The notes beneath the pieces were generated by a model. That model was not told the origin of the DNA. It did no database searches and saw nothing but the letters and a program-made list of their open reading frames with translations. Below are positions 99-17,329 of a stretch of 48,679 nucleotides of DNA, one piece after another. The DNA is taken from assembly GCF_009711975.1 (NCBI RefSeq), contig NZ_VIKW01000003.1, forward strand, positions 1 through 48,679, written 5' to 3'. Each line of letters starts with the position of its first letter. Position 1 is the stretch's first letter. The translations under genes were made by a program, and so were the position numbers. This DNA comes from Anabaena sp. UHCC 0204 (GTDB lineage: Bacteria > Cyanobacteriota > Cyanobacteriia > Cyanobacteriales > Nostocaceae).

Positions 99-2762
99 TT
101 AGAGTGCTTGCTGAAGTTGTATTTCCTGCTGCGCTCTAAGTTTTGCTTGTGCTTCAGCCTCAGCTTTAATCTCTGCTTCAACAAAAGAAGCATATAACTT
201 GATATCTGAGTTTACAGTTTCAAAACTAACAGCCAGTGCAAAAGGTACATCAGCATTAGTATCCTGGTTCCATCCCGTATGTCCAACTACAGCAATACAA
301 AAGCCTTCGCGTAGCTCATAGGATTTTACAGTCGCCCAATCTTTCTGAACAGTTCCTGTACTTCGGGACAATTCCTTAACGATGCCATCAATACCATTTG
401 GGCGTGTTTGACCCTTAGCTAACTGTCTCTTTCCCAGTGTCCATTGAAACAGCCCCTCATCTTCCTCAGTTTCGTCTGGTGCATTATAATTTTCAAGAAC
501 TCTATCAAGGAAACAATCAGGATCTTCTCCCCGTTTGCTACAAGTCCAATCTAACCAAGTTGATAGATATTTCCTGCGATTGCGTCGGGTACGACGAGGT
601 TCAGCCACATAAGAAAGTGTGATTTCAATCAGAATGTCAAACCCTTCCCCTTGAGGTAGGAAATTTTCTGGCACTTTTACTTGGTAAACCTTAGCTTGTC
701 GAGCTTTAATGCGCTCTAACCCTCTAGTTGTTAGTGTTACACGATTTGGGGAATTGCCCAGAGCGCGATTGATATCTGGAATACCATAACCCATAGTCCG
801 AATGGCATGATAAAGTTCCTTTGCATTCAAACTATTTGTCCAGACTGGTAAACGTGCTGATTGAACTATGAGTGCGCGGTAAAGCAGTGTGCTTTCTTGA
901 GGAAATGCTGCTTCCAAGGCGGCAGCAATATGTGTGACTTTAGGAGCAGCAAATGATGTCCCTACAGCATCGGCACTGACAGCTTGACCACCATCACGGG
1001 TTGAACGAACCAATTCTGGGCAGACTGACTCTGGTGTAGTAAAATTTGGTAAATTTGGAGAGTCAATCACGTAGTCACCCCCATATTCAACCACTTCTGG
1101 TTTAATAGTGTCCCAAATGCCTGGACCTGAGCAGGAGAAAGAAGAAGGATAATTCTCTTTTGCGATCGAACTTAAGGGCGGACTACTATAAGTGTGGTGA
1201 GCAATAGAACCAACAGTTAGAGCTTGAAAACTTTGAGATGGGTTAGCAACTCTTGCAGAAGGTTGCAGCAGATATCGTGGATAGTTACGACCTGCTTGTA
1301 TATGAGCGAAAATTGAAGGGCGTGTGACATAGTTTGCGCGTGCCTCAATATTACCAGCAGAAACAATGAAGAGAACATCATTTTCCCAACTCAGCTTATC
1401 AATAGCTGCTGCCCAAGGAGTCATTGATTGAGTGCGACATGGCGAAATTCCACCTATTGAGTGGTTATAAATTCTGGTTCTAGTTTGGCGATAATAAATA
1501 TCTACAATTTCCTCTAAAACATCAGGCGGAAATAGCAGTCTAGGTAGTTGCTTTCGGTCATCGAGAATCCTGGCATTTTGAAGCCAACACACTGCCTGCT
1601 GACGACCTGTTTTAGGAATGCCTCGTGGGTATAAAACTGCCCCCGCAACCCTTGTTCCATGCCCACCATTTTTAAAATAATCATAATCAGCAGTCATATT
1701 ATTTTCTCCAGGCACCCAAGATGTAGAGAGAGTAGGGTAAATAGCAACTCTCAGTTTAGGGTGAACCTCTTGAATGCCACTGTCGATAATACAGACTTTG
1801 GGTGCGTTTGGCTGAGGTGGTTCTAATTCAAACTGTTCGTGATCTGATCCAGAGGTATTAGGTGTAACGGATGGAGCTATAAATTCATCAGCTTCACTGA
1901 CATCGAATATATATGGAAAGTTGAGGACAAGATCCTTTAAACCTTTACCGAGTATGCGAATCCGGCAGGAAAAGCTATCAGGTAGGCGTGAAATACCCAC
2001 TTCATCACCTAGAATAGACCGCAAAATTTCTCCACGGTATAGTGGTTGTCGAATAAATTTCTCAAACTGGTCTTCTCTCACTAAATACAGATCATCCCAC
2101 TCTTCAGATGTGAGATTATGGTTATCCAACCATTCATCAATCTTTTTTTGAAAATCTGCATCGCTCTTACAGCGTTCCCGCTTAGGACATTTAGAATATT
2201 GTTCTTGAATGTTGATGCAAGAAATACCTACATCCACAATGTATTCTTGATGATCTGAAATCTGATCCCACTGGGATTGAAGACTAGGTGAAAGAATATA
2301 CTCCGGTCGCTTAGTCCCGTCCAAAATTTCCCATATTTCTGGAACCTTGCCACCACCCCTCTGGGAATCAATGAATTGCTGAATCTTTTTTCTGAGTTCC
2401 GACAGTCCTATATCTGCCGATGCTCCAATAATGTAGCCTTCCTCCAGATCAGCAACAATCTCAATCCCGAAACTTTTCAGGGCATCTGCATCAAATAAAT
2501 TGGGATCTATTTGTAAAATGAATGAAACTGCATCTGGGAGATCAGGTTTACCCTCTTCCTTCCTTTTTTCGCGTTCTGCTTCCCAATTTGAGACAATAGT
2601 TGAGATGGAAGACTTTAGCTTGCCACCATGTCCACCAGCATTACCTCGATTCGCCAGAGTTGTTGCAGAGATTTTCCTCCCACCTCCTGTAGGTGGAGCA
2701 GCAGTTCCTTGATTTGTCAAACGTAGAGGTAAATGAGAAAATTGATTCAATTGCTCAGACAT
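99..2762 (-). CDS. S8 (subtilisin-like) serine protease paired with AAA ATPase
   Basis: This 887-residue protein carries a complete subtilase triad: Asp327 in CIIDSG, His368 in GGHGTRVAG and Ser603 in GTSFAAP, with the oxyanion Asn in the VSAGN motif. About 320 residues precede the catalytic domain, and about 220 follow it, ending in an Ala/Glu/Gln-rich helix. There is no signal peptide, so it should act in the cytoplasm, unlike most secreted subtilases. Its start overlaps the end of the upstream AAA ATPase gene by 8 bp, so the two are translationally coupled and probably form a complex in which the ATPase feeds or activates the protease. Such subtilase/AAA pairs recur near defence genes (general knowledge; the role here is inferred). 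The location inside CAST cargo supports a defence or stress function. The substrate is unknown. Confidence 0.88.
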   Translation of the reverse strand: MSEQLNQFSHLPLRLTNQGTAAPPTGGGRKISATTLANRGNAGGHGGKLKSSISTIVSNWEAEREKRKEEGKPDLPDAVSFILQIDPNLFDADALKSFGIEIVADLEEGYIIGASADIGLSELRKKIQQFIDSQRGGGKVPEIWEILDGTKRPEYILSPSLQSQWDQISDHQEYIVDVGISCINIQEQYSKCPKRERCKSDADFQKKIDEWLDNHNLTSEEWDDLYLVREDQFEKFIRQPLYRGEILRSILGDEVGISRLPDSFSCRIRILGKGLKDLVLNFPYIFDVSEADEFIAPSVTPNTSGSDHEQFELEPPQPNAPKVCIIDSGIQEVHPKLRVAIYPTLSTSWVPGENNMTADYDYFKNGGHGTRVAGAVLYPRGIPKTGRQQAVCWLQNARILDDRKQLPRLLFPPDVLEEIVDIYYRQTRTRIYNHSIGGISPCRTQSMTPWAAAIDKLSWENDVLFIVSAGNIEARANYVTRPSIFAHIQAGRNYPRYLLQPSARVANPSQSFQALTVGSIAHHTYSSPPLSSIAKENYPSSFSCSGPGIWDTIKPEVVEYGGDYVIDSPNLPNFTTPESVCPELVRSTRDGGQAVSADAVGTSFAAPKVTHIAAALEAAFPQESTLLYRALIVQSARLPVWTNSLNAKELYHAIRTMGYGIPDINRALGNSPNRVTLTTRGLERIKARQAKVYQVKVPENFLPQGEGFDILIEITLSYVAEPRRTRRNRRKYLSTWLDWTCSKRGEDPDCFLDRVLENYNAPDETEEDEGLFQWTLGKRQLAKGQTRPNGIDGIVKELSRSTGTVQKDWATVKSYELREGFCIAVVGHTGWNQDTNADVPFALAVSFETVNSDIKLYASFVEAEIKAEAEAQAKLRAQQEIQLQQAL

Positions 2763-3810
2763 GGGAAATTACAACGTCTTGAATAGATGCCTCAAAGTGT
2801 TCTTGGATGACAAGTTCTTCTCGATCAAGGATGGCGCGTTTTGCGGCATCTTGAGCAACTCGAACAATCTGTGCAGCTGAAAGTTTATCCAGTTTTTGCA
2901 CAATCGTTTCCCAGTTGATTATGCCAACCTCAACAGAGGAAAGTGTCTGTTTTAATATAGCCTGAATTTCTGCTGTTGTAGGCTTTGGCACTTCAATTAC
3001 ATCATCAAATCGTCGCCATACTGCTTCATCCAGAAATTTAGTCAGGTTTGTAGCAGCAACAAGCAATCCATTCGATGCTTCGTATTCATCAAGTAGTTGT
3101 AAAAAAGTATTAACAACACGCTTAATTTCGCCAACTTCCTGAACGTCTTCTCGTGATTTAGCAATCGCATCACATTCATCAATGAACAACAAACAAGGAG
3201 TTTGAGATGCTGTTTCAAATACTTCACGTAAATTAGTTGCTGTTTCTCCCAAAAATGAAGAAACCATTGCATCGAAGCGTACTTTTACAAGAGGAAGTCC
3301 AGTGTTCCAAGCTAGGCGTTCAGCACCCATTGTTTTACCACAACCAGGAGTACCGTAGAGCAGAATTTTTTGGCGGTAACGTAAACCGTGATGAGCTAGT
3401 CTGTCACGAGCAACATATTCTCTTTCGATACGGCGAAAACGCTCTTCCACAACATCTGAAAGAATCATGTGGTGTCGCAAACGCTCTCTAGGAATCGCAA
3501 CAATGAAGGGATGGTTAAAACGCTGTTTACTTGATAATAAAGTTAGAGAGTGGGCATCAGGTGTTTTTGAAATAGCTTCTCTAGAAGATGTAGACGGAAT
3601 GACACCACGAGATATATCAGGTGAAAGCTCAAGTTTCTCTGGAGGAGATTGACGATTACTTTTGTGAGCAATATTTTGGAGTTGTTCAGCGAGGAGAGTG
3701 TGTCCTTTTTTGCGTTCGTCCTCAACGACTACAGAGAGCATACTTTGGATCGCCGTTTGATCTTCACTGGCGATCGCTCTAAATAGCCGTTTTAACAACT
3801 CTCCTTTCAT
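2755..3810 (-). CDS. AAA+ ATPase partner of the S8 protease
   Basis: This 351-residue protein has one AAA module: Walker A GTPGCGKT at residues 153-160, Walker B LLFIDE ending at Asp211-Glu212, and a WRRFDD arginine-finger region near residue 266. The first 100 residues are helical and then Ser/Pro-rich, with no recognised domain; they may contact the protease. The fold resembles FtsH/spastin-type classical AAA ATPases but lacks a membrane segment and its own protease domain. It is the first gene of a two-gene unit, with the protease start overlapping its end. A plausible minus-strand promoter lies just upstream (3832-3861). A substrate-remodelling or gating role for the protease is inference. 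Confidence 0.88.
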   Translation of the reverse strand: MKGELLKRLFRAIASEDQTAIQSMLSVVVEDERKKGHTLLAEQLQNIAHKSNRQSPPEKLELSPDISRGVIPSTSSREAISKTPDAHSLTLLSSKQRFNHPFIVAIPRERLRHHMILSDVVEERFRRIEREYVARDRLAHHGLRYRQKILLYGTPGCGKTMGAERLAWNTGLPLVKVRFDAMVSSFLGETATNLREVFETASQTPCLLFIDECDAIAKSREDVQEVGEIKRVVNTFLQLLDEYEASNGLLVAATNLTKFLDEAVWRRFDDVIEVPKPTTAEIQAILKQTLSSVEVGIINWETIVQKLDKLSAAQIVRVAQDAAKRAILDREELVIQEHFEASIQDVVISHV

Positions 3811-4119: not shown

Positions 4120-4241
4120 AATGCCGAAACTATAGGGTTGCAAAGGATTATTATTTTCCTTGCCTTTCATAGTAACTAGCAACTTGCGTTAATGCCGAAA
4201 CTATAGGGTTGCAAAGGATTATTATTTTCCTTGCCTTTCAT
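4100..4241. repeat. Exact 71-bp tandem duplication at the 3' end of the metallopeptidase gene
   Basis: Positions 4100-4170 and 4171-4241 are identical. Each unit starts with the inverted-repeat terminus of the neighbouring MITE-like element and ends at CTTTCAT, which includes the stop codon of the minus-strand metallopeptidase gene. Perfect identity indicates a recent duplication. Each unit also contains a weak GCAAAGGA/TTCCTTGC stem that might act in transcript 3'-end formation. Confidence 0.92.
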
Positions 4242-4936
4242 AATACGAAGCGACTACCATTTTCAGCTAACCACTGCTTCCTTAATCCAAAGTCGGGCAA
4301 AACACGCTCTATATATTTCCAAAACTGGGTATTGTGATGAGATTCATGTAAATGCACTAATTCATGAACAATAATATATTCTATTATTCGGGGTGGTAGG
4401 AGTATAGTTAACCAGTGGAAATAAAGGTTTCCTTGGCTACCACATGATCCCCAACGAAAACCTAAGTCTCGGATTTTGATGATGCTCGGAGCTACACCTA
4501 GCCTGGGTGAGAATAAATTTACCCAACGTTGTAACCAAAGTTCCGCGTGTTGTGTGTACCAATGAATAAAATGCTTTCTGGCATGGTCTTGTTCATTAGA
4601 CCTAAGCATAAATCTACCTTGGTAAAGGCGTAAAGGAGTGGGAGATTTTGTTGATACTAAGAATAAGCGATAACTGCGACCTAGATAATAAAATCCTTCA
4701 CCGTTGACAAACTCTTTCTCTGACTGATTTTGGGCAAGTAATTCTTTTTCTGCTAATTTCGTGTAAATCCAAAAGCGTTTCTCTAAGGCAATTTGCTCAA
4801 TTATTTCCAAAGGACAATCATAAGGAGCATTGACGATTAATTCTCCACCTCGGTCAATGGTAATACCTACTGTTTTTCGTTTGTTACTCCGATTTAATAC
4901 AAAGTACAAATCATCAATTACCAGGGATTCACTCAT
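4238..4936 (-). CDS. YgjP/WLM-like zinc metallopeptidase (DUF45) associated with type I RM
   Basis: This 232-residue protein has the DUF45/YgjP signature: the zinc motif HELVHL (His191, Glu192, His195) followed by HESHHNTQFW, which supplies the third zinc ligand region, and the family-typical RWGSCGSQGNLYFHW segment at about residues 161-175. The family is SprT/WLM-related and predicted to be a cytoplasmic metallopeptidase; its function is unknown. Its start overlaps the hsdR stop by 4 bp, so it is the last gene of the hsdM-hsdS-HEPN-hsdR operon. YgjP-like genes often accompany type I RM loci, perhaps controlling restriction enzyme turnover (inference). Its final codons lie in the second copy of the 71-bp tandem repeat. 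Confidence 0.88.
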   Translation of the reverse strand: MSESLVIDDLYFVLNRSNKRKTVGITIDRGGELIVNAPYDCPLEIIEQIALEKRFWIYTKLAEKELLAQNQSEKEFVNGEGFYYLGRSYRLFLVSTKSPTPLRLYQGRFMLRSNEQDHARKHFIHWYTQHAELWLQRWVNLFSPRLGVAPSIIKIRDLGFRWGSCGSQGNLYFHWLTILLPPRIIEYIIVHELVHLHESHHNTQFWKYIERVLPDFGLRKQWLAENGSRFVL

Positions 4937-7900
4937 ATTATGGTTAATTTCCCATGAAGGTGTTTGGCTAATTCTAGGATGCGATCGCTCACTGCCTGTT
5001 GTCGAGAAAAGGGTATCACATCTTCGTCATCTAAGAATCGGACAATCCACCCCCGCAATAGGTTTTGAGCATGGGCATTTCTCCAGAAATCAACTATTCT
5101 AATCTCTTGACGGATGTGTTCTACCATTTCTATTGTGATCGCTGCCAGTTTGTTAAGTTCTATATCCAGTAATTCCTGTCCTGGATGAACTTCTTCTACC
5201 AAAATGCCTAAAAATGGCGCTTGGGTTCTGGGGTCAAGGCCAGTTTCATCTGCGGGACGACCTTGGCGCAAATCTTCAGTAAATTGGCGTAATGCTTCTA
5301 CTAATTCTGCCCATTTATCCTGAAACCTTTCTAAAATCTCTTCTAGGCGTTCGCTTAATTTTTTGTAATAAGACGGGTCTTCCTGAAAGTTTTTGCTGAT
5401 ATGGTAACGGGCAGCGTGTTCCATTTCCGATGCTTTGGCACGATCTGAGGTTCGAGAGTTGACAGCACTCTCAAAATCGGCATCCATAATCGAGATTGGG
5501 GGGACTTGAGGATCTATGCCACTAGCTATGATGTATTCGTCTATGAGTTGCCGGACTTTATTTCCTGCACCATAAATATTCAGTTGGAAGTCCCGGTAAA
5601 GATTGGCAGCAGCCTTATTGATATAGCCGAGGATTTTGGCATCTTTTATGTAAGGTAATGCTTCTGGGCGGGGCATGACAATATCTAGACTTTCCAAAAA
5701 TTGCTTTAACTTGACTACAAATTCAGCCCGGATTTTGATATCTCGTAGTAAGTCAATGCAACTATGAACATCGGTAATGTCGGGAATACTCCGACTTTGA
5801 AAAACTGCAAGTACACGCTGATAGCGATCGCTCAATTTGGGTAATTCATCTGTCAGGCTGATTAAAGCCCCTTGGACATCTTCAGCACTATAAACTGCCA
5901 AAGCTTGTTTCAAATGTCGAGCCACGCCATAGTAGTCTACAACCAAGCCACAGGATTTACGGGAATAGGTGCGATTAACACGAGCGATCGCTTGCAGTAA
6001 TTCATGTCCTTGCATTGAGCGATCCAAATACAATACTTGCTCAATGGGGGCATCAAAACCAGTTAGCAACATACTTTTGACGATGATGAAAGCCAAACTA
6101 TCTTGTTTGCTTGGATCAGGATGTAGCAGTGATTTTTTAAATCGGTTGATGTAGTCTTCTACTTTGGATTTATCACTCCACTGCTTCCAAGCCGGATCGT
6201 CATTGTTGCCACTGGAAATGACACTTGCAAACTCTAAACCTTTGATTTGCTCTAATTGCGGATAAATCCGGGTTAAAAACTCAGTTTCGGGATTTAGTGA
6301 TGGTTGAGAAGGGTCAAAACTTTCCAATTGGGCTACTAATTCTTGATGAGCAGCAACAAAAGCCTGTTGATAGCGGACTGCGGCCAGGCGACTACTAGCC
6401 ACAACTTGGGCTTTAAAGCCATTGGGTAGCACTGTTTCTACATAATGGCGTAACATATCCTCTGCCTTGGCTGCTATAAGTTTTGGAGCTTCCAAGACGT
6501 TGCCTTCTGTGGCGTATTTGGCGCGAATTGCTGCTAATTCTTGAGGAGTTCTTTCCCGAAACATATCCTCGAAAAGTTGATCTAGCGATCGCCCATCTGC
6601 TACTTCTGCCTCAGCAGTACGTCCTTCATAGAGAATCGGTACAGTTGCCCCATCTGCCTCTGATTCTTTAATGGTATAGCGATCAATAAACTCCCCAAAA
6701 ATTTCGTAGGTACGCTTGCGGTTTCCTGCCAAAATCGGAGTCCCTGTAAAACCAATCCTGGCACAATTGGGTAAGGCTGCCATCAAGTTAGCGTGTAGCT
6801 GACTAGCTTGGGTGCGATGGGCTTCATCTACTAAAACTAGGATATCTTCTGAATTATTCAAAATCGGAAATTGCTCGGTTTCCGTCACCAGACGAACCAC
6901 TTTTGGATTGAGGTTATAGCTAGAAGAATTTTCTGCCACTTTGCGAACAGTATTCTTGCCCTGACTAGATGGGTATTTTAATATGCTGCTACTGCTTTCT
7001 GTAGTATCTTCATCTCGCTGTTGATATTTCTGAATTGTGGCAAAGATTAAATCTGGACTAGATTGACGCAGCAGGGTTTTGAGTTCTTCAGTATTGATTG
7101 CTTTTAAAACTGTTTCATTGGTGAGACTGGCAGTATTACTAAGTTGTTTTTGTAAATCTATTCTGTCTGTGACGACAACAATTTTAAACCGCCGTAATTT
7201 TGGTAAAGTTCTCAACTTTCGTACCAAAAACACCATTGTTAAACTCTTACCAGAGCCTTGGGTATGCCAAATAATTCCGCCGCGTTGATCACTTTCACCA
7301 TGCTGACTACGAGTTTTACCATTTTGCAAACGGCGCACTGACTCCTGTACGGCTCTAAACTGTTGATAACGAGCCACTATTTTGATATTCTTGCCATCTG
7401 ATTGTTGAAATAGGGTGAAATTTCTAACTATATCCAGTAAGAGGGCTGGACGTAGCATTCCCGCTACTAAAATTTGCTGACTACTGAGTTTTGTTTCTCC
7501 TAATTCTGCTGCTACCTCAGCCATTGATACAGGACTGGTATCTTTCCATTCTAGATAATGTTCATAAGATGCGCCAATTGTTCCTACTCTGGCTGCATGA
7601 AAAAAGGTAGAAATCAAAAATTGATTGTAATGAAATAGTTTTTCTACACCTTCATCGTCTGCAATTTCTTCTCGTTGATTTGTATAACGTCGTAACTGGT
7701 TAATGCCTTCTGCCATTGGTTCTGTGCTAGAAGGACTTTTACATTCTATTACTACTAAAGGAATGCCATTTATAAATAAAACAATATCAGGAATTATATA
7801 ATTTTTACCACCAGGAATATCAACACGAAATTGATTAATAATTAGGAAATCATTGCGTTCAGGATGGTCAAAATCAATGAAGCGAACGGTCTGATCTCTG

Positions 7901-8241
7901 CCTCCGTCCCATTGTGGATCTCCTTCTGTTACAGTTCCTTGAAGTAACAAATCAGTGGCTATTTGATTTGCTTCCATGAGTTTGGCAGTTCCCAACCTTT
8001 CTAAAACACCAATAGCGGTATTGATACGACTATCATCTAGCCAGGGTTGTCCGTTGTCATTAAGGTTAAGTTTACTGATGGCTTTGTGCAGTCTTTCCAT
8101 CAGCAGCACTTCCCGGAAGTTTTGTCTTTCGGTTAGGTAAGGAACATCTATGTCACCCTCGATATATTGCCAACCCATAAGTTGAAGTTGGTTAATCAGA
8201 GGGAGTTCAACCTGGTTATATTCTGAAGGCTTGCTATTCAT
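4933..8241 (-). CDS. hsdR: Type I restriction enzyme R subunit (HsdR)
   Basis: This 1102-residue protein is the nuclease-translocase of a type I restriction system. The N-terminal PD-(D/E)xK nuclease is visible as Asp152 (in PDIVLF) and Glu166-x-Lys168 (IECKSPS). The SF2 motor follows: Walker A HTQGSGKS at 327-334, DEAH at 472-475, SAT-like motif FTGTPI, and motif VI QAIARVNRTYSRK. The C-terminal third is helical and resembles the HsdM-docking region. Its start overlaps the HEPN gene stop (ATGA) and its stop overlaps the start of the YgjP-like gene. Length and motif order match the family, and no frameshift is seen, so it is probably active. Confidence 0.97.
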   Translation of the reverse strand: MNSKPSEYNQVELPLINQLQLMGWQYIEGDIDVPYLTERQNFREVLLMERLHKAISKLNLNDNGQPWLDDSRINTAIGVLERLGTAKLMEANQIATDLLLQGTVTEGDPQWDGGRDQTVRFIDFDHPERNDFLIINQFRVDIPGGKNYIIPDIVLFINGIPLVVIECKSPSSTEPMAEGINQLRRYTNQREEIADDEGVEKLFHYNQFLISTFFHAARVGTIGASYEHYLEWKDTSPVSMAEVAAELGETKLSSQQILVAGMLRPALLLDIVRNFTLFQQSDGKNIKIVARYQQFRAVQESVRRLQNGKTRSQHGESDQRGGIIWHTQGSGKSLTMVFLVRKLRTLPKLRRFKIVVVTDRIDLQKQLSNTASLTNETVLKAINTEELKTLLRQSSPDLIFATIQKYQQRDEDTTESSSSILKYPSSQGKNTVRKVAENSSSYNLNPKVVRLVTETEQFPILNNSEDILVLVDEAHRTQASQLHANLMAALPNCARIGFTGTPILAGNRKRTYEIFGEFIDRYTIKESEADGATVPILYEGRTAEAEVADGRSLDQLFEDMFRERTPQELAAIRAKYATEGNVLEAPKLIAAKAEDMLRHYVETVLPNGFKAQVVASSRLAAVRYQQAFVAAHQELVAQLESFDPSQPSLNPETEFLTRIYPQLEQIKGLEFASVISSGNNDDPAWKQWSDKSKVEDYINRFKKSLLHPDPSKQDSLAFIIVKSMLLTGFDAPIEQVLYLDRSMQGHELLQAIARVNRTYSRKSCGLVVDYYGVARHLKQALAVYSAEDVQGALISLTDELPKLSDRYQRVLAVFQSRSIPDITDVHSCIDLLRDIKIRAEFVVKLKQFLESLDIVMPRPEALPYIKDAKILGYINKAAANLYRDFQLNIYGAGNKVRQLIDEYIIASGIDPQVPPISIMDADFESAVNSRTSDRAKASEMEHAARYHISKNFQEDPSYYKKLSERLEEILERFQDKWAELVEALRQFTEDLRQGRPADETGLDPRTQAPFLGILVEEVHPGQELLDIELNKLAAITIEMVEHIRQEIRIVDFWRNAHAQNLLRGWIVRFLDDEDVIPFSRQQAVSDRILELAKHLHGKLTII

Positions 8242-9644
8242 TGCTTACCTTCATATCTATTAGCATTAGCGTCTGAAAGGAAGTCGGGAAACTGCAAATC
8301 TAATTGTTCCTTTAAAGCGGTAATAGATGTGACTCGTTTAAAATAGTCTTTATCAATCATTTTACGTACTGATAGCCAACCTAGTTTTACCGATTCAGCT
8401 AAGTGGAGAGTTTGACAAAATAGTTGCTGAAATATTTCAGGGATTCCTAACGCAGAATTTATCTGCTCACTATCACAAAATGCTTGTAATACCATCAGCA
8501 TTTGCTCTGAACTAAGTAAGGATGCTACTAAAAGTAAATTTTCTCCATTAGCTTGAACTACTGCATACGAAGAATTTATAAAACTATCAACAACGGATTG
8601 TATATAATCTTTTGTAATTGGTATGATTTCGTTAGGTGATAATTCATGTTGAAAATTTTGAACTAATACTTCAGGAGATAGTTTTTTTACTCTTTCTACA
8701 GCCATATATCTAAGTTCAACTACATTTAAGGCATCAACCAAAATGGTTGTAGCTGCTGCATTAGCAACGTTTTCAATAAATCTTCTGGTTTTTGTTTGGT
8801 GTGCTTCACTTAAAAACTCCCAAGCTTTTATATGGCGTAAATAACTGATCATTTTTGCCCAATTTGGATCACTAACGCCATCGGCAATTTTTGATAACTC
8901 GGTTTTAAGAATATCTTCTGATTCTTCAAAGTACATCTTTGATATTGCCTGGAGCGCAGCAAACTGGCGATTGCGTTCTGTTTTTGGTCTGTCAGTAAGT
9001 AGTAAATCTTTTGTCAATCCAATTATTACTCCACGAACCAAAGGTCTACGAGCGCGAGCTAAAGGACCACTGCGTAAAGTTATAACTGCCTCATCTACAT
9101 CCATTGGGAAAAGTTCAGCACTAATCTGATCCCATATAGTTTTTAGAGCAGCTCTGCCTTGCACTGGAGGATGTTGCAAAAGGTGCATCACGGCATTCCG
9201 TAAATGATAACGTGCTAATTCAGCAGAAGCTTGAAATGTTTCTTCCAGAGACTGCATAGAGGGATGAGCGCATCTATTTCTGTCTTCAAGCAATCTTTTT
9301 AAGTCATAGTATTCTAGAGGAGAAATAAACTCATATTCTTTCAAGGCTAGGTCAGGAACACTTTTTTCAAAAGCAAGGATTTTACTGATGTTGTTATTGT
9401 CTTGATTATTAGCACGTAAATCTTCAAAATCATCTAATTGTTTCTTGGCATTTTTGTGTCCTGTTTGTTCAAGTTGGCGCAGTTTATGGATAAAATCAAA
9501 AACTACTGCATTCCAGGTAGATACAATACAAGAGCGAAAAGCTCCGGCTCGGTAGCAGGTCACGGCTTCTTGGATATACTCTTTTGTAGACTTGTCCCGA
9601 CAACGAAGGACTAACTCGTCTAAATCAGCTAAACGTTCACTCAT
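8238..9644 (-). CDS. HEPN-like protein in the type I RM operon
   Basis: I do not recognise the full 468-residue protein. Its first 150 residues look like a HEPN helical bundle, with an RNRCAH sequence (Arg122 to His127) fitting the Rx4-6H ribonuclease motif, preceded by a helix rich in conserved-looking Trp/Phe (VSTWNAVVFDFIH). The remainder (about 150-468) is all-helical with no motif I can name. It sits between hsdS and hsdR with a 24-bp gap on one side and a 4-bp overlap on the other, so it is made together with the restriction complex. HEPN RNases often serve as toxins in defence loci, so an abortive back-up role is possible (inference). No MNT nucleotidyltransferase partner is present. 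Confidence 0.7.
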   Translation of the reverse strand: MSERLADLDELVLRCRDKSTKEYIQEAVTCYRAGAFRSCIVSTWNAVVFDFIHKLRQLEQTGHKNAKKQLDDFEDLRANNQDNNNISKILAFEKSVPDLALKEYEFISPLEYYDLKRLLEDRNRCAHPSMQSLEETFQASAELARYHLRNAVMHLLQHPPVQGRAALKTIWDQISAELFPMDVDEAVITLRSGPLARARRPLVRGVIIGLTKDLLLTDRPKTERNRQFAALQAISKMYFEESEDILKTELSKIADGVSDPNWAKMISYLRHIKAWEFLSEAHQTKTRRFIENVANAAATTILVDALNVVELRYMAVERVKKLSPEVLVQNFQHELSPNEIIPITKDYIQSVVDSFINSSYAVVQANGENLLLVASLLSSEQMLMVLQAFCDSEQINSALGIPEIFQQLFCQTLHLAESVKLGWLSVRKMIDKDYFKRVTSITALKEQLDLQFPDFLSDANANRYEGKQ

Positions 9645-9668: not shown

Positions 9669-10937
9669 TCATGCACTAATTTTTTGAGAAGTGTTCACTC
9701 GAACTCGACCAGTTAACAGATCATTCATTAGTCCTTTTTTTTGAAGTCTGAATTTTTCGAGATAAGTTTCTTCAGTAAAAATTCTACTGTTATATGTATT
9801 AACAATTTCAATTATAAGCTTTTGTTCATTTTGCGGTGGTATGTGAACTAGAGTTCCCCGAACAATTCCGTAGTTAATACCAACTTGTGCTTCAGCCAAA
9901 CCAATTTTTTTACAGTTCCAATCTTTTTGTACAACTAAAGAACCAAGAGTAAGAGGGGCAAAAGCAGGTAATAACCTGCTAGATGCTTTTAAACGAATTC
10001 TAAAGACTGTATCTGGCATCATAAGATTTGGAGGAGTTGATGCAACATGAACAACTACACCAACTCGATCACGTGGTCCTTTGCGAGTTATGAGAATGTC
10101 ATCCACCGCTACAACCCCTTGTTCCCGTGGTTGTAGACTTGAAGGTAATTTTTTGTTTTCTAGAGGATTATAGCCATTCCAAACGATAGCAGTAGTTTTA
10201 AGTACACCCCATTCACCATCAACCACTGGTTCAGGATCGCACACAGGACTCCAGCCACTACTAAGATTTGCAATATGTTCACCAAATAGCTCAATTTCCC
10301 AATCTTTCGGAATTCTCCCCAGTAGCGAATTTTTAAACTGTTCAGGATGTGCGATCGCATCCCGCAATTCTCCATTTTCATCAAGTCCACGAGTCAGCAA
10401 GTCGTGAAGCAGTCCGTCTTTGATTTGCTTGAGTTTGGCGATAATAGAGGATGTGTGTGCGATCGCTTCATCTATGGTGTCGAGAATTTCAGCAATACAT
10501 TGTTGTTCAGTTTCCGGTAAATAAATAATAGGTAAATTTGCCAGTTCAGCCTTGCCAATTGCTTCAAAAGTCGAACCTTGTGCAACTTTTCTAAGCTCAC
10601 TAGCCCAATAATTCAATAAATGCCAGCCAAACTTGGGTAATGTGCCTTTTTTAAATCGAATAGCAGCAAGTCCCCGACCAATACAATAAACACGATCAGC
10701 TTTGTTTAGTGTACCAACTGGCGCTCTAACACTAATCAGAACATCATTGATTTCGCATATTTTTTGGGGTTTTGTACAGTAAAAGCTATGCTGTGGGGTT
10801 ACTGCTCCGAATTCAGCAGAGCCTTGGAGAAAAGGAATACCATGTCCTGCGTCAGTTACAAATAAAGAATCAGGAGATTGTCCCATTTCAAAACTTGCTA
10901 GTTCTCCAAGCGGAACAGTTTTGAGGTCAGATAACAT
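9669..10937 (-). CDS. hsdS: Type I restriction-modification specificity subunit (HsdS)
   Basis: This 422-residue protein has the two-repeat architecture of HsdS. Target recognition domain 1 opens with [17 protein letters not shown] and ends in a [20 protein letters not shown] helix near residues 150-175. TRD2 opens with [23 protein letters not shown] near residue 212 and ends in a similar helix ([20 protein letters not shown]). The two conserved helices set the spacing of the bipartite DNA site. It overlaps the hsdM stop by 11 bp. TRD sequences vary quickly, so the recognised sequence cannot be read from the protein. Confidence 0.95.
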
Positions 10938-13521
10938 ACCCCAACCCCCTCAAAAACCCATCCAACCGCTTCGCTGCATCATCCCTTTTTGCCTCAATAT
11001 CGCGCAAATTCACCCGATATTTATCCCACCAATTCTCAAGACTAGAAATTACCTGCTGACGATGAGCATTAACATAACGATTTAATTGATTTTCTAAATC
11101 ATCCTTAGCAATATCTAACACCAATCGCTGACATTGTTCCATCATCAACTGCTTTCTAGCATTATCCAACTGCTTAATTAAATCTTCCTTCAACTTAGTC
11201 AAAATTTTCTTAACCTGTAACAATTCCTGCTTGAGTTTCTTAATTTCAGCCTCACTCAATTGCTCCTCATCTTCTAATTCCCCTTCTTCACCTTCTTCAT
11301 CACTCTTTTTAGTCGCTGCTAACTGACTTTCTAAATCTGCTTTTTTAGCTTCATAATCTGCCAACTGTTGTAAATATTTTGGCAATAAACGCACCACCAA
11401 TTTATGACCTAAAGGGTCAGAACCATTACCATTTTTATTATCACTATCCAAATCTGCCCGAATTGTTTCCACCCAACCTTCTATCAAACCATCAAAATTT
11501 TGAGCAGCAACAGTTTTCAAATCATACTGGATTTCATTCCACCAACTAGCAATTACCCCATTAACTTGAAATTCATCCAAAAACAACAGCATTTGTTCTT
11601 GAATTGCTTGTTTTCTTAAACTCTCAGCTTTCGCTTCTATTTCATTTTCTACGAACCCTTTAAAACTTTGATTAGCCACAGAAGTCAAAGTATTTTCATT
11701 ATTCTCTAACCATTGAGACATTGTTACCGCTACTTGGTAAGGTTCGAGAATTTTAATCGGACGCATTGCTTCAGTAAAAGATGTCAGAAAATCAGCACGA
11801 ACTTTCATCAAATCTTTAGTTTCTGGTAACTGCAACAATTGGTTTTCGTGAATTTCCCACCAACTCAAAAAAGCATCCTTTAGCCTTTTTTCCTGCTGTG
11901 CTATACCTGGATATGATTCTACAAAATCTTTAATTTGACTACGTTCTGTGAGAGTTGGTAAAAAATCGAAATAATTTTGATTCCTTTCTATAAAAAAAGC
12001 ACTGGGTTCAAAACCATGAGCAATAAAAGGTTCTTGTTTAGCTGCCACTTCCGCTTTAGGCACACCTCCTAAAAGATGCGCTCTTACATCATGGGGTTCG
12101 GTCGGTGGTGCATTATCAGCATAACGGCGAATATTGCAATTGTAATCATTTTCAGCCAATTGTTGTTTAGTAACTACTGCTGCATAACCAGGAACATTTA
12201 CAAACGCCTCAAAAGAGGAAACAATTTTTTCAATATGCTCAGGTTTCAGGAAATTTTGCGCTCTACCAGATTGAAATTCGGCATCAGCATTAATAAATAA
12301 AACCTTACCTTGACGATCTTGAGGTTTTGCTGCTTTTGAACCTCTCATTACCAAAATACAAGCAGGAATACCAGTTCCATAAAATAAATTTGGTGGTAAA
12401 CCAATCACCGCTTCTAACAAATCATCTTCAATAAATTTCTGGCGGATTTCCTTTTCTACTCCACCCCGAAACAACACACCATGAGGCATTACTGTTGCCA
12501 TCATTCCCGTACTTCGCAACACTGCTACCATGTGTTGAACAAACATCAAATCTGCTTTTTTACCATTTTCAGGACAAAAGCCAAAACGGAAACGCTCGTT
12601 AAACTTTAATCCATCAGTTGAATAATTTTGACTAAATGGCGGATTACTAATTACCCGATCAAAACGCATTAGCTCTCCACCTTCTAAATGTAGTGGATTA
12701 GCAATAGTATCATCATTTTGAATAGCTTTCTCATCAGTAACAATGCCATGCAAAATCATATTCATTTTACAAATTGCCCAAACTCCACCATTAGCTTCTT
12801 GTCCATAAAGACTAAGATTTTTGGCATTACCTTGATGTTCTTCTACATATTCCTTAGAGAGAATTAGCATACCTCCTGAACCTACACAGGGGTCATAAAT
12901 TCGCATTTTCTGTTGTGGTTTGAGTAATCGCACCATTAACCGCGATACGTCACGGGGGGTATAAAATTCGCCGCCTTTTTTACCTGCGGAATCAGCAAAA
13001 TGTTTAATCAAATACTCATAGGCTGCTCCCAACAAATCAGGAAATTCAAAATCCTCATTACGCAGAGGAAGTTTACCAAAATGCCGAATTAAGTCCCGCA
13101 ATTTTTGGTCAGAAACTCTGGTTTTACCTGCTGTTTTATTAAAATCAATGTGGCTAACAACGCCTTCTAAAATTGGGTTTTCATTTTCCAGCGCACCCAA
13201 AGCTTTATTTAAGCCATTACCAACATCACTATGTAATTCTTTTTCGATATAATTCCAACGCGCTCTTTCTGGGACAAAGAAAGTCTTGTCATAGTAAGCA
13301 GATGATTCAGCACGTTGTTTTGCTTCTGCTTCTGTTCTACCTTTAAGTATATTCGCTGCTATAATCTGCTCATACTGCTCCTCAAACACATCAGAACAGC
13401 GTTTTAAAAAGAGCATTCCAAAGATATACTCCTTATACTCAGAAGCATCCATCTTGCCACGCAGAATGTCAGCAGCAGCAAATAGGTGACGTTCTAACTG
13501 AGATAGGGTAATTTTTCTCAT
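10927..13521 (-). CDS. hsdM: Type I DNA methyltransferase subunit (HsdM) with long C-terminal extension
   Basis: This N6-adenine methyltransferase shows the HsdM N-terminal helical domain (residues 1-150), the SAM-binding motif DPCVGSGG (210-217) preceded by [13 protein letters not shown], and the catalytic NPPF (293-296). I place the start at MRKITLSQ (13521), because the in-frame upstream ATG at 13569 adds only a hydrophobic 16-residue stretch not expected in HsdM. The protein is 864 residues, against roughly 500-550 for typical HsdM. The extra C-terminal ~350 residues include a charged coiled coil ([13 protein letters not shown] and following helices). It heads the RM operon and lies about 100 bp downstream of the cvkR-like gene on the same strand, so transcription could continue from that gene. 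Confidence 0.93.
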
Positions 13522-13619
13522 AAAGGCAATAGCCTGGATACTTATAAAAATAAACAAACTCTTGTGCAATTAACAGATTAGCGTAGATGGGAAGCCTTTT
13601 GTCATTGAACAGGAATCTA

Positions 13620-14042
13620 TTAAGCTAACCTACTTGCTAAGTTCTGATAAATAACATCTAACCACACAGGAATCACAGCCTTACCTTCATCCAGGGATGC
13701 GATCGCTCTTTTCCGATCAAATTCTACCAAAGAAAGCGAATCATCCTGAGATAACAACAACATATACCGCTTACCCTCACCCGAAATAAACAACTCTGGT
13801 TCTTGTTCCTTCAGTTGTTTGAGAATAAAACAAGCAATATCAAAACTGATACCCGTAGACAGCCAATATACCAAAGCAGCCAACTCCACCAAATTAGACC
13901 TTGAATAATAAATACTGCGTCCCGTACCCGTATCACTAATTACAGGTACAACAATCCCCTTCTCTCGCCAATACTGAATCTGGCGAAGGGTACAACCTGT
14001 CAATTGAGCCGCTTCCTTACTTGTGAAAAAAGTTTCTTGCAT
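13620..14042 (-). CDS. MerR-type repressor of the V-K CAST (CvkR-like)
   Basis: This 140-residue protein begins with a MerR winged-helix DNA-binding domain (FFTSKEAAQLTGCTLRQIQYWREKGIV, residues 5-31) with the family wing (GTGRSIYYSRSNLVEL). The C-terminal half lacks the cysteines used by metal-sensing MerR proteins. It is divergent from cas12k with 69 bp between start codons. A MerR-family repressor in exactly this position, CvkR, controls cas12k and tracrRNA in Anabaena CASTs (established knowledge), so orthology is likely. It would bind the shared 14043-14111 region, and possibly the tracrRNA promoter, whose hexamers are 19 bp apart. The effector, if any, is unknown. Confidence 0.88.
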   Translation of the reverse strand: MQETFFTSKEAAQLTGCTLRQIQYWREKGIVVPVISDTGTGRSIYYSRSNLVELAALVYWLSTGISFDIACFILKQLKEQEPELFISGEGKRYMLLLSQDDSLSLVEFDRKRAIASLDEGKAVIPVWLDVIYQNLASRLA

Positions 14043-14111
14043 AAAATACTATTTTACAGAAAGCGGCTATAATACAAATATGGTTTTATTAGACAAATTT
14101 GTTTATTAGGT
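14043..14111. promoter_or_regulatory. Divergent cvkR-cas12k promoter/operator
   Basis: The 69-bp gap carries TATAAT (14068-14073) on the plus strand as the likely cas12k -10. On the minus strand TATTAT (14069-14074) with TTGTCT 16 bp upstream forms a candidate cvkR promoter. The two -10 elements overlap, so RNA polymerase could probably serve only one direction at a time. A perfect 10-bp palindrome, ACAAATTTGT (14093-14102), lies between the plus-strand -10 and the cas12k ATG and is a good operator candidate. The plus-strand -35 is weak. Binding by the MerR protein is inferred from known CvkR biology. Confidence 0.6.
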
Positions 14112-16019
14112 ATGAGCCAAATTACCGTTCAGTGTCGTTTAGTAGCCAGTGAAACTACCCGTCAACAACTATGGCAATTGATGGCAGAGAAAAACACGCC
14201 ATTAATTAACGAATTACTCATGCAAATGGGTAAACATCCAGAACTTGAAAAATGGCGGCAAAAAGGTGAACCTCCTAAAGGTCTTGTCAACAAACTGTGT
14301 GAACCCTTGAAAACTGATCCGCGCTTCATGGGACAACCTGGAAGGTTTTACACCAGTGCCACAGCATTAGTAAACTATAGTTATAAATCCTGGTTGACGT
14401 TGATGAAGGATTATCAATCCCAACTGGATGGTAAATTGCGCTGGTTAGAAATTCTCAATAGTGATGCTGAATTAGTAGAATACAGTGGCGTTTCATTAGA
14501 TACTCTTCGTGCTAAATCTGCGGAAATATTGGCTCAATTTGCACTACAAAAAACCAACGGAGATACACCAAGCAAAGGTAAAAAGTCTAAAAAACGGAAA
14601 AAATCTCAAAATATAGATAACGAAAGCAATTTATCAGAATACTTATTTGATACCTACGGAGATACAGAAAATAATATAACTCGTTGTGCTATTAGTTATT
14701 TACTTAAAAATGGCTGTAAAATTAACGATAAAGAAGAAAACCCCGAAAAATTTGCTCAACGTCGCCGTAAAGTAGAAATCCAAATTCAACGCCTCACAGA
14801 AAAACTAGCAGCCCGAATACCCAAAGGACGAGATTTAACTGACACCATAAGGTTAGAAACTCTTATTACCGCCACTCAGACTGTTCCTGAAAATGAAACA
14901 GAGGCAAAATTCTGGCAAAACATTCTGTTAAGAAAATCTAGTCAAGTACCTTTTCCAGTAGCTTACGAAACTAATGAAGATTTAGTGTGGTCTAAAAATG
15001 AATTTGGGCGGATATGTGTAAAATTCAGTCGCTTGAGTGAGCATACATTTCAAATTTATTGTGATTCTCGCCAACTTCACTGGTTTCAACGTTTCCTAGA
15101 AGATCCACAAATTAAGAAAGATAGTAACAAACAACATTCTAGTGCCTTATTTACCCTGCGAAGCGGTCGTATTGTTTGGCAAAAAGGAGAAGGTAACGGA
15201 GAACCCTGGAATGTTAATCACTTAATGCTTCATTGTTGTATAGATACTCGTTTATGGACACGGGAAGGAACAAATTTAGTCAAAGAGGAAAAAGCTGAAA
15301 AAATTGCCCAATCCATCAGCAATACTAAAGCCAAAGGTGAGTTAAATCATAATCAGCAAGTTCATCTCAAACGCAAAAACTCCTCTCTAGCCAAAATTGA
15401 TAAACCCTTCCCTCGTCCCAGCAAGCCTTTATACAAAGGACAATCTCATATCTTAGTGGGTGTGAGCTTGGGTTTAGAATATCCTGCCACCGTTGCAGTT
15501 GTAGATGGTACTACGGGCAAAGTTTTGACATATCGGAATATTAAACAACTACTTGGTGATAATTATAAATTACTCAATAGGCAACGACAACAAAAACACC
15601 TGTTATCCCACCAACGCCATATCGCTCAAAGGATAGCAGCACCAAATCAATTTGGAGATTCAGAGTTAGGAGAGTATATAGATAGATTACTAGCAAAAGA
15701 AATTATTGCGATCGCACAAACATATAAAGCTGGCAGTATTGTTTTACCGAAATTGGGAGATATGCGAGAGCAAATTCAGACTGAGATTCAATCTAAAGCT
15801 GAACAAAAATCAGATTTAGTAGAAGTCCAAAAAAAATATGCCAAACAATACCGAGTAAGCGTCCATCAGTGGAGTTATGGCAGATTGATTGCAAATATTC
15901 AAAGTCAGGCAAAGAAAGCAGGAATCGCTATAGAGGAGGGAAAACAACCAATTCGAGCGAGTCCACAGGAGAAAGCCAAAGAATTAGCAAAAAACGCCTA
16001 TCAATCTCGAAAAGCCTGA
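14112..16019 (+). CDS. cas12k: Cas12k, RNA-guided target-selection effector of the CAST (nuclease-dead)
   Basis: This 635-residue protein matches Cas12k along its length; the opening (MSQITVQCRLVASETTRQQL) and the blocks LKTDPRF-GQP, YKSWL, LDGK-RWLE and LNSDAELVE are family hallmarks. The RuvC-like fold is present but inactivated: motif I reads GVSLGLE near residue 450, with Ser in place of the catalytic Asp, and the segment expected to carry the motif II Glu reads IVLPKLGD. Cas12k therefore binds target DNA through crRNA/tracrRNA and recruits TniQ, TnsC and TnsB instead of cutting. No transposition proteins are encoded nearby; they are expected outside the left edge. The tracrRNA promoter begins at the base after the stop codon. 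Confidence 0.97.
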   Translation: MSQITVQCRLVASETTRQQLWQLMAEKNTPLINELLMQMGKHPELEKWRQKGEPPKGLVNKLCEPLKTDPRFMGQPGRFYTSATALVNYSYKSWLTLMKDYQSQLDGKLRWLEILNSDAELVEYSGVSLDTLRAKSAEILAQFALQKTNGDTPSKGKKSKKRKKSQNIDNESNLSEYLFDTYGDTENNITRCAISYLLKNGCKINDKEENPEKFAQRRRKVEIQIQRLTEKLAARIPKGRDLTDTIRLETLITATQTVPENETEAKFWQNILLRKSSQVPFPVAYETNEDLVWSKNEFGRICVKFSRLSEHTFQIYCDSRQLHWFQRFLEDPQIKKDSNKQHSSALFTLRSGRIVWQKGEGNGEPWNVNHLMLHCCIDTRLWTREGTNLVKEEKAEKIAQSISNTKAKGELNHNQQVHLKRKNSSLAKIDKPFPRPSKPLYKGQSHILVGVSLGLEYPATVAVVDGTTGKVLTYRNIKQLLGDNYKLLNRQRQQKHLLSHQRHIAQRIAAPNQFGDSELGEYIDRLLAKEIIAIAQTYKAGSIVLPKLGDMREQIQTEIQSKAEQKSDLVEVQKKYAKQYRVSVHQWSYGRLIANIQSQAKKAGIAIEEGKQPIRASPQEKAKELAKNAYQSRKA

Positions 16020-16050
16020 TTGACAAAACACCGAACCTTGAAAATATAAT
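16020..16050 (+). promoter_or_regulatory. tracrRNA promoter with 19-bp spacer
   Basis: A perfect TTGACA (16020-16025) begins at the base after the cas12k stop codon and is followed, after exactly 19 bp, by a perfect TATAAT (16045-16050). Consensus hexamers held 19 bp apart, instead of 17, are characteristic of promoters controlled by MerR-family proteins. Transcription would begin near 16057, at the start of the tracrRNA-like sequence. Confidence 0.75.
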
Positions 16051-16056
16051 AGTAAT

Positions 16057-16280
16057 CAACAATAGCGCCGCAGTTCATGTTTTTGATAAACCTCTGAACT
16101 GAGATAAATGTGGGTTAGTTTGACTGTTGTGAGACAGTCTTGCTTTCTGACCCTGGTAGCTGCCCACCTTGAAGCTGCTGTTCCTAGTGAACAGGAATAA
16201 GGTGCGCCCCCAGTAATAGAGGTGCGGGTTTACCGCAGTGGTGGCTACCGAATCACCTCCGAGCAAGGAGGAATCCACCT
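16057..16280 (+). ncRNA. Type V-K tracrRNA
   Basis: The sequence follows the known Cas12k tracrRNA closely: AATAGCGCCGCAGTTCATG at the 5' end, GGGTTAGTTTGACTG...ACAGTCTTGCTTTCTGACCCTGG in the first hairpin region, then GTAGCTGC, GGTGCGC, GTGGTGGCTACCGAATCACC, and a CCTCCGAGCAAGGAGG hairpin before the anti-repeat. The anti-repeat AATCCACCT (16272-16280) can pair with the 3' part of the CRISPR repeat. It lies between cas12k and the array on the same strand, as in other V-K systems. Ends are estimated from the promoter and from homology and could move by several bases. Confidence 0.93.
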
Positions 16281-16342
16281 TAATTATTTATTTTTGGCGA
16301 ACCATAAGCGAGGTCAATTTACCTGGGGGTTCTGCCAAAAGT

Positions 16343-16474
16343 CCAAATCCCTTATCTAGTCTGTGTTTCAGATGTCAAGATGCTTTGATAATGTTCCCTT
16401 AAGAGGAAAATTTAGAGCAAATTTAGGACATTCGCCAAAATTGCTTTTGGAAGTGTCACTAGATAAGGGTTTGG
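16343..16474 (+). repeat. Inverted repeat framing the CRISPR leader
   Basis: CCAAATCCCTTATCTAGT (16343-16360) and ACTAGATAAGGGTTTGG (16458-16474) are complementary over 17 bp with one bulged base, separated by 97 nt. The right arm ends 9 bp before the first CRISPR repeat. The segment between them has no ORF of note. The arms could form a long-range stem in the tracrRNA-array transcript or mark an inserted segment; its role is unknown. Confidence 0.7.
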
Positions 16475-16483
16475 TCGGGCGGA

Positions 16484-16811
16484 GTTTCAACACCCCTCCC
16501 GGAGTGGGGCGGGTTGAAAGCAGCTTTTCCCTTGACCACCACTCAAACTAACAACAGAGTTTCAACACCCCTCCCGGAGTGGGGCGGGTTGAAAGCTGAA
16601 AATTTAGCGGGAATTAAAAAGGAATGGAATGTTTCAACACCCCTCCCGGAGTGGGGCGGGTTGAAAGTTGCAAATACTTTTGCTTCTAGAGTACAAACCA
16701 GAAGTTTCAACACCCCTCCCGGAGTGGGGCGGGTTGAAAGCTTAACCATCTTTACTGTCTCCTTTACTACTTTGGTTTCAACACCCCTCCCGGAGTGGGG
16801 CGGATTGAAAG
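16484..16811 (+). CRISPR. Type V-K CRISPR array, five 37-bp repeats and four full spacers
   Basis: Repeats lie at 16484-16520, 16559-16595, 16631-16667, 16704-16740 and 16775-16811. Each begins GTTTCAACACCCCTCCCGG and ends GGGTTGAAAG; the first four are identical, and the last has GGATTGAAAG, as is usual for a terminal repeat. Spacers are 38, 35, 36 and 34 bp. A further 30-bp stretch (16812-16841) separates the last repeat from the truncated homing unit. Orientation follows the tracrRNA. No Cas1/Cas2 is encoded here, as expected for V-K, so spacer acquisition depends on other loci. I could not match the spacers to anything in the window. Confidence 0.98.
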
Positions 16812-16841
16812 ATGTTTATGCAAGAATATTAAAAAACTTTT

Positions 16842-16874
16842 AGGTGGGTTGAAAGATCGGAAGGTCGTCGGTTT
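16842..16874 (+). ncRNA. Truncated repeat plus homing spacer (delocalised crRNA) targeting tRNA-Thr
   Basis: A 14-bp remnant of the repeat 3' end (AGGTGGGTTGAAAG, 16842-16855) is followed by ATCGGAAGGTCGTCGGTTT (16856-16874). The first 13 bases of that spacer match the minus strand of the adjacent tRNA-Thr gene perfectly (17062 down to 17050), with 17 of 19 matching overall. The target is preceded by GTA (17063-17065 complement), a V-K type PAM (GTN). Truncated repeat-spacer units that send the element to tRNA genes are known for V-K CASTs. The remnant pairs with tracrRNA AATCCACCT over nine consecutive bases. Confidence 0.93.
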
Positions 16875-16919
16875 AATTTGGACAGAGCTTATAATAGTAA
16901 ACAAACTATTGACCGTGAG

Positions 16920-17003
16920 GGACAATAATTTGGCAATGCGGACACCAATTTGGCAATGCGGACACCAATTTGTCAACGCGGTCAAATAATTTGTCAAGTG
17001 ACA
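16920..17003. mobile_element. CAST right end: four 20-bp TnsB-type repeats
   Basis: Four head-to-tail units follow with no gap: GGACAATAATTTGGCAATGC (16920-16939), GGACACCAATTTGGCAATGC (16940-16959), GGACACCAATTTGTCAACGC (16960-16979), and a terminal unit at 16980-17003 starting GGTCAAATAATTTGTCAAG and ending TGACA. Read inward, the tip is TGTCACTTGACAAATTATTT, which has the TGT terminus of Tn7-like elements and resembles known V-K ends. The tip is 59 bp from the PAM of the homing target, in line with the 60-66 bp typical of V-K insertion. The direct 5-bp flank is GTCAA. Confidence 0.88.
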
Positions 17004-17027
17004 GTCAAATATTATTTAATAAATAAG

Positions 17028-17098
17028 GCCAGCAGTTGGATTTGAACCTACGACCTTCCGATTACAAGTCGGATGCACTACCACTGTGCTATGCTGGC
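17028..17098 (-). tRNA. trnT-UGU: tRNA-Thr (anticodon UGU), CAST attachment site
   Basis: The minus strand folds as a full cloverleaf: acceptor GCCAGCA/TGCTGGC, D arm GCAC-AGTGGTA-GTGC, anticodon arm TCCGA-CTTGTAA-TCGGA with anticodon TGT, variable loop AGGTC, and T arm GTAGG-TTCAAAT-CCAAC. CCA is not encoded. Two oddities: the third T-stem pair is A·A, and the base after the acceptor stem (discriminator) reads C. The gene lies 24 bp from the transposon tip, so insertion left it intact. Positions 17062-17044 are the protospacer of the homing crRNA. Confidence 0.92.
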
Positions 17099-17329
17099 GG
17101 ATTTGGTAAGAAGGTTTTTTATTCCCTCACCGATTTCATATTATAGCTTCATGTAAATGATTTGTCTAGAGGGTAAGCAAAATATTTTTTTGGCGGCCAA
17201 AAATCAGCAAAACTAGCCACCATGCTGTAGATCCATGCAAAAATATTTGGTACAGTTCAATTCTGTATTCCTTGTGACACGGCTATGCAAAGGTGCAGAA
17301 AAACATTTGTTCTTTACAGATAATCAAGC

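Follow-up and report, generated by a model that had tools for sequence, protein, structure and literature searches.

The locus raises the question of whether a type V-K CAST that ends beside a tRNA-Thr gene was placed there by its own guide. The window, that is, the whole stretch of DNA analysed, comprises bases 1-48,679 of contig C33 (312,723 bp) from a cyanobacterial genome of 5.74 Mb. From the left edge of the contig to position 17003, it holds most of a type V-K CAST, including cargo genes, a MerR/CvkR-like regulator, cas12k, tracrRNA, a five-repeat array, a truncated repeat (R*) with an anchor spacer, and the left end; to the right of 17003 lies host DNA with tRNA-Thr(TGT) and argF (Table 1). 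With high confidence, we interpret the element as a type V-K CAST whose left end is seen here and which was brought to its present site by RNA-guided homing. The homing arrangement is already known for type V-K CASTs, whose anchor spacer or delocalised crRNA was reportedly described in 2021 by Saito and by Hsieh & Peters, and the window is a well-formed further example of it. The CRISPR-side end is named the left end here, which corrects the first-pass annotation and follows the convention in the available part of PMC9938897.

Table 1. Features of the element and of the adjoining host DNA in the window.
Feature	Position	Strand	Evidence or remark
Cargo, S8 peptidase, IetS-like (anti-phage)	99..2762	-	PADLOC IetS 3.3e-60; Pfam Peptidase_S8; below NCBIfam cut-off
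Cargo, AAA ATPase, IetA-like	2755..3810	-	PADLOC IetA 7.3e-80
Cargo, YgjP-like metallopeptidase	4238..4936	-	Pfam PF01863 1.3e-55
Cargo, type I restriction HsdR	4933..8241	-	TIGR00348 468 bits
Cargo, PD-T7-3-like protein	8238..9644	-	PADLOC PD-T7-3 3.8e-26
Cargo, type I specificity subunit HsdS	9669..10937	-	Pfam Methylase_S 1.1e-18
Cargo, type I methyltransferase HsdM	10927..13569	-	Pfam N6_Mtase 2.4e-105
MerR-type regulator, CvkR-like, divergent from cas12k	13620..14042	-	Pfam MerR_1 3.2e-13; placement matches the available part of PMC9938897
cas12k, 635 aa, intact	14112..16019	+	NF038191 V_Cas12k 947 bits (cut-off 150)
tracrRNA	16054..16279	+	3' anti-repeat TCCACC 16274-16279; A16277 faces repeat position -11
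CRISPR array, five 37-nt repeats, spacers 34-38 nt	16484..16811	+	Last repeat with one changed base
R*, truncated repeat GGTGGGTTGAAAG	16843..16855	+	Position -11 is T, array C
Anchor (homing) spacer, 17 nt, ATCGGAAGGTCGTCGGT	16856..16872	+	16/17 match to tRNA-Thr target
Left end with TnsB-type repeats	16873..17003	+	Tip ...GTGACA at 17003
GTCAA outside the tip	17004..17008	.	Not repeated at C46 right end
tRNA-Thr(TGT), host	17027..17098	-	
Protospacer ATCGGAAGGTCGTAGGT inside tRNA-Thr	17046..17062	-	1 mismatch to anchor
PAM GTA	17063..17065	read on minus	

The cas12k gene of the window is the sole full copy found in a genome search. A short cas12k-like fragment (G000:C1:124075-124188, 24 bits) is perhaps a relic of an older element. 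The tracrRNA presumably resembles that of ShCAST. Its 5' end was inferred from the TSS of Anabaena 7120, 35 nt past the cas12k stop, as given in the accessible part of PMC9938897. Rfam CRISPR-DR15 has five matches at the array, on the minus strand. The last array repeat is altered at one base (GGCGGATTGAAAG) and R* starts 31 nt later (window 16775-16842), thus the anchor unit looks like a sixth, truncated array repeat. R* ends 44 nt past the last array repeat, as in two other elements (L051 and L121), and further away in many. Three of the five array spacers were searched in a plasmid collection: two had no match there, and the third had a weak 25-base match in Fusobacterium (E 0.3) that was taken as chance.

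The components of the homing signal can be read directly at the left end. The first-pass annotation had described a 19-nt spacer (16856-16874) matching tRNA-Thr perfectly over its first 13 bases; the match is real, but it was understated and the spacer drawn too long, since the matching part is 17 nt and agrees with its target at all positions except spacer position 14. The GTA directly 5' of the protospacer on the target strand and the 59 bp (17004-17062) between this PAM and the tip were both correctly recognised, and the tip and flank meet as ...GTGACA/GTCAA at 17003/17004. Across the whole genome, the only sites within 3 mismatches of the anchor are the spacer itself and the tRNA-Thr target, and a reversed control pattern in the same search gave 3 forward and 3 reverse matches. 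R* plus anchor, taken as an exact 30-mer, had no match in a viral contig collection. The anchor length agrees with the 17-bp heteroduplex of the ShCAST structure, as described in the consulted part of PMC9876797. The earlier view that 59 bp fits the reported offset holds in part: the distance falls 2 bp below the range of 61-66 bp that the same portion of PMC9876797 reports for ShCAST, but it is central for natural elements, as described below, and lies inside the 46-82 nt (with a single value of 147) given for natural V-K elements in the available part of PMC9938897.

We compared the window with natural V-K loci from a Cas12k scan that found 115 relatives, the best 80 of which were kept as named loci; 10 of the resulting 81 (window included) had less than 300 bp downstream and were excluded. 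An anchor match, defined as a repeat end followed by a 17-mer that matches a downstream protospacer within 3 mismatches, is present in 55 of the remaining 71 loci (the window and the best 80 of 115 relatives); seven of the 16 loci without one have less than 2 kb of sequence downstream of cas12k. All 55 best matches in this set lie on the opposite strand and have a GTN PAM (GTA 28, GTT 14, GTG 10, GTC 3), and 47 of the targets are inside tRNA genes; when the spacers were reversed, 2 of 390 repeat ends in the 81 loci gave a match. The PAM-to-tip distance has a median of 60 and a range of 28-79, with about five tips (L053, L066, L070, L093, and L120) being ambiguous or wrong, and is exactly 59 in nine loci, including the window. 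Perfect anchors number 37, while 16 have one mismatch and two have two mismatches; 16 of these 20 mismatches fall at positions 10-17 (binomial P 0.003, kinship among loci not corrected for). The element of the window probably homed despite its one PAM-distal mismatch.

The window shares with the V-K anchor layout in the available part of PMC9938897 the presence of Cas12k, the lengths of R* (about 12-13 nt) and of the spacer (17 nt), the target in a tRNA, the GTN PAM, the orientation with the left end closest to the tRNA, and a spacing within 46-82 nt. It differs in its mismatch to the host tRNA, although 18 of the 55 anchors have one or two, and in that no target-site duplication was seen. A close counterpart is the element of Chrysosporum bergii ANA360D (L121), which shares the 17-nt anchor, R*, the repeat, the array-to-R* spacing and the tRNA-Thr target, and whose tip compares with that of the window as TTTGGCAAGTGACA vs. 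TTTGTCAAGTGACA; however, its target is perfect, its distance is 61, and its Cas12k is 82% identical.

What is observed comprises the sequence parts and their spacing, the finding that the target is unique in the genome, and 54 further loci that are laid out in the same way. We infer that the guide is expressed and that it made this insertion, with the protein steps proposed by analogy to those established for ShCAST. The truncated repeat and the 17-nt anchor would yield a short crRNA, which would form a duplex with the tracrRNA and load Cas12k. This complex would recognise GTA and 16 of the 17 bases of tRNA-Thr(TGT), after which TniQ, TnsC, and TnsB would integrate the element at a distance of 59 bp from the PAM, in a single orientation with the left end leading, and the tRNA would stay intact.

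The two ends of the element lie on different contigs, and this counts against the homing explanation. The only rve match in the genome is a tnsB frame on contig C46 (29.8 bits, below the Pfam cut-off of 32.6), which resembles tnsB in 24 of 24 genomes of named V-K loci. A tnsC-like frame beside it has no NCBIfam match and was named by its place, its size, and its conservation beside tnsB in G011 and partly in G009; another frame, a putative tniQ judged by its place and sequence, runs to the contig end with no stop seen. C33 and C46 probably carry the two halves of one element, the connection between these tnsB-tnsC-tniQ genes and the window resting on synteny and copy number and not on sequence. 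The right-end tip, TGTCGTTTG at C46 (reversed) 14743, stands exactly where likeness to a degenerate element in G015 starts; together with ACA at 17001-17003, it gives the TGT...ACA form of Tn7-type ends, and over the last 24 bases it agrees with the left end at 18 (counted by eye). The degenerate CAST in question (L039, 12767-19160) occupies the same tRNA-Thr; its tnsB and tnsC are missing and its cas12k is cut short, its ends are kept, and an older tip lies 110 bp outside its right end.

Tn7-like insertion is expected to produce a 5-bp duplication, and the first-pass annotation had predicted GTCAA at the other end. This prediction failed: the only tnsB-bearing right end found in the genome, that of C46, is flanked by GTTAC. 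The proposal that the position of the element was set by its own guide thus lacks this confirmation, and is supported by the spacer, PAM, orientation, and distance and by the 54 other V-K loci. We surveyed the tips of 27 natural elements, partly by eye (the window, G002, G004, G009, G011, G013, G015, and 20 named loci). Eight of them have exact direct repeats (5 bp or longer) at the tips; this is a lower bound, as stacking of elements may have led to wrong pairing of some ends. The other 19 have none. The repeats measure 8 bp in G002, 7 in L063, 8 in L070, 6 in L078 (whose ends look unlike in type), 5 in L079, 5 in L094, 10 in L119, and 5 in L123 (poly-A); those of 6 to 10 bp, in G002, L063, L070, L078, and L119, exceed 5 bp. 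L072, which matches only with a one-base shift, and L103, with 4 bp, were scored as having no duplication; L081 (tnsB on a contig of other size), L114 and L064 (neither with a recognised right end), and L062 (right end beyond the available sequence) were left out. Since most of the natural elements surveyed have no exact repeat, the missing GTCAA is weak evidence against homing and does not refute it. A 5-bp duplication marks a fresh insertion and does not define the V-K family.

The comparison with a relative lacking the element, which had also been suggested, gave a mixed outcome. None of 15 congeners offered a clean empty site sharing the left flank; on the other hand, in congeners without the left end of the window, likeness on the tRNA side stops at the tip, beginning at 17008 in G004 and 17013 in G012 (compared with window 1-17400). 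These two genomes were rejected as empty sites, as each carries near its tRNA-Thr a 62-bp stretch (L035 18935-18996 and L038 19148-19209, respectively) that resembles the cvkR end at window 13645-13706 and is perhaps the relic of another, lost element. G014 shows no likeness to the window element or to C46 in the 6.5 kb left of its tRNA-Thr and has GTCAA at a similar PAM distance, which is suggestive, but its left flank differs from C46. A match to the C46 flank beside the tRNA in G006 (44 bp, 82%, E 1.9e-6) was given no weight, since the stretch partly recurs at many places.

The unlike flanks of the two ends can be explained in another way, namely that the ends stem from different events, either replicative transposition within the chromosome, with a new, guide-chosen target on the left and old DNA on the right, or recombination of stacked elements; in both cases the guide would still have chosen the left-end site. 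Type V-K elements lack TnsA, and no obvious TnsA was seen among the neighbouring genes viewed beside the C46 tnsB, the gap between C46 and C33 being unread. This explanation is favoured by the frequent absence of exact repeats in natural elements and by cointegrates of ShCAST, reported in the available part of PMC11406308. Stacked elements occur in L052, where, upstream of tnsB, 2 bp separate the new right end from an older left-end tip that has the same tRNA-Val anchor, and in G034 (L168), where a second V-K left end lies between a window-type left end and the tRNA. The synteny of the right flank can be read in two ways. It favours the homing explanation in that, measured from tRNA-Thr, the host side of C46 is found at 450 bp in G003 and, with other DNA between, at about 9 kb in G011 and 17 kb in G002. 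It favours separate events in that the DNA next to the VWA gene is located far from tRNA-Thr in G004, G007, G009, and G013. Against separate events, three congeners have VWA adjoining or close to tRNA-Thr, so this adjacency may predate the element, and three of the five flank bases agree (GTCAA vs. GTTAC), as might result from a true duplication decayed by two substitutions. We regard separate events as a realistic account of the two ends, though clearly short of an even chance.

The mismatch between guide and host bears on the origin of the element. We searched for the guide 17-mer in 217 genomes of the family, 201 from other genera and 16 from the genus of the window. The exact 17-mer occurs in 88 of the 201 other-genus genomes, at most 86 of which have it as a target, since the exact copies in G034 and G028 belong to the anchor of the element itself. 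In the 16 genomes of the window's genus, it is absent except as the spacer of the element; 11 of these genomes have an A allele with one mismatch, and in the other five nothing lies within one mismatch of the guide. Twelve other-genus matches were checked (11 exact, one mismatched) and all are in tRNA-Thr(TGT). The same anchor faces a perfect target in C. bergii (G031) and G109 and a target with one mismatch in G034 and G028, while in G033 the anchor has a changed base and the target is the exact 17-mer; the left ends of the four same-anchor elements are 84-91% alike to that of the window over the aligned parts. Thus, near-identical guides are found in different hosts while the tRNA varies. 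In two of these genomes, G109 (L162) and G028 (L164), a left end, an R*-like repeat, and the same tRNA-Thr anchor stand as solitary anchors, as no cas12k was found in the 40 kb examined. At the same tRNA-Thr, G013 and G002 have V-K elements from a different branch (L004 and L007); their anchor, GTGCATCCGACCTGTAA, has 1 mismatch and is aimed elsewhere in the gene.

As the guide equals a tRNA-Thr allele that is common in other genera, the element probably was either taken up from a different genus, which is the simplest reading, or, possibly, retained since a time before the tRNA allele changed. It is very improbable that the match is a relic, with the insertion made by another guide or untargeted and the anchor fitting tRNA-Thr from an ancestor's stay in another host: an exact 17-mer target is indeed found only outside the genus, but PAM, strand, orientation, and the 59-bp offset all fit this tRNA-Thr, no other genomic site lies within 3 mismatches, and untargeted placement at the exact offset is improbable.

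The anchor repeat differs from the array repeats in a way that recurs across V-K elements. We analysed the 47 loci with an anchor, an array, and a recognised tracr anti-repeat; eight of the 55 anchor loci (best 80 of 115 relatives, with the window) lacked an anti-repeat or array. The pairing tracr segment is a putative assignment, chosen by complementarity and by sgRNA design. At position -11, the base of the anchor repeat departs from the array consensus in 41 of the 47 loci, whereas differences elsewhere number 0 or 1 at each of -1 to -10, four at -12, and 11 at -13; further 5', anchor and array diverge because R* ends. The tracr base facing -11 pairs with the anchor in 43 loci and with the array in six (anchor only 39, both four, neither two, array only two). 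Anchor and array pairing differ by at most one locus at -8, -9, -10, and -12. In 20,000 shuffles among loci, which ignore kinship, the count of anchor pairs never rose to 43, and that of array pairs fell to six in a single shuffle. Two states exist at this position, tracr A with anchor T (24/24) and tracr T with anchor A (19/23). The tracr duplex of the anchor is predicted to be stronger in 39 loci, equal in four, and weaker in four (median difference -3.9 kcal/mol, 47 loci), and array repeats are predicted to fold into hairpins (-14 to -18) in the eight loci shown. Of the loci viewed after the rule was seen, G009, G011, and G005 fit, the last on one decayed repeat; G034 has an array that pairs at -11 and is mismatched at -12. 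The check found no recognisable tracr in G004 and no repeats in G003.

We tentatively propose, at slightly less than even confidence, that V-K elements mark the homing guide by one base: the anchor -11 would be kept complementary to the tracrRNA, while the array repeat is mismatched there and forms a hairpin that R* cannot form, so that the anchor crRNA would win tracrRNA and Cas12k and homing would be favoured over array-directed transposition. Alternatively, the difference may be inherited drift of an old unit with no role in guide choice, a prospect that we also place somewhat below even. A quick tree built from 44 Cas12k proteins requires two changes of the tracr base, five of the anchor, and seven of the array, leaving 1-2 independent pairs, and thus the covariation at -11 is not independent evidence; the array-only, both, and neither loci are exceptions to the rule, and at -13 the array pairs more often than the anchor (46 vs. 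40 of 47). Against drift stand the concentration of differences at -11 relative to -1 to -10 and -12, the constant T of all 24 anchors facing tracr A while their arrays carry C, T, G, or A, and the different forms that the array mismatch takes by clade. The available parts of PMC9938897, PMC11406308, PMC9876797, and PMC12719977 yielded no statement of the -11 difference, which may be in print, the 2021 papers of Saito and of Hsieh & Peters being outside that scope. In type I-F3 CASTs, there are likewise two crRNA classes, the homing one with an atypical repeat; however, according to the accessible part of PMC11406308, guide categories are read there via TniQ and the effector complex, as opposed to the tracrRNA pairing suggested here for V-K.

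The locus is thus a readable natural homing event with one guide-target mismatch, the other form of the target being found in other genera, and it bears both on the crossing of hosts and on the mismatch tolerance of Cas12k in nature. That most of the natural elements checked have no exact duplication bears on replicative transposition in the native host. If true, the repeat/tracr lead would turn the sorting of homing and array guides in type V-K elements into a one-base question.
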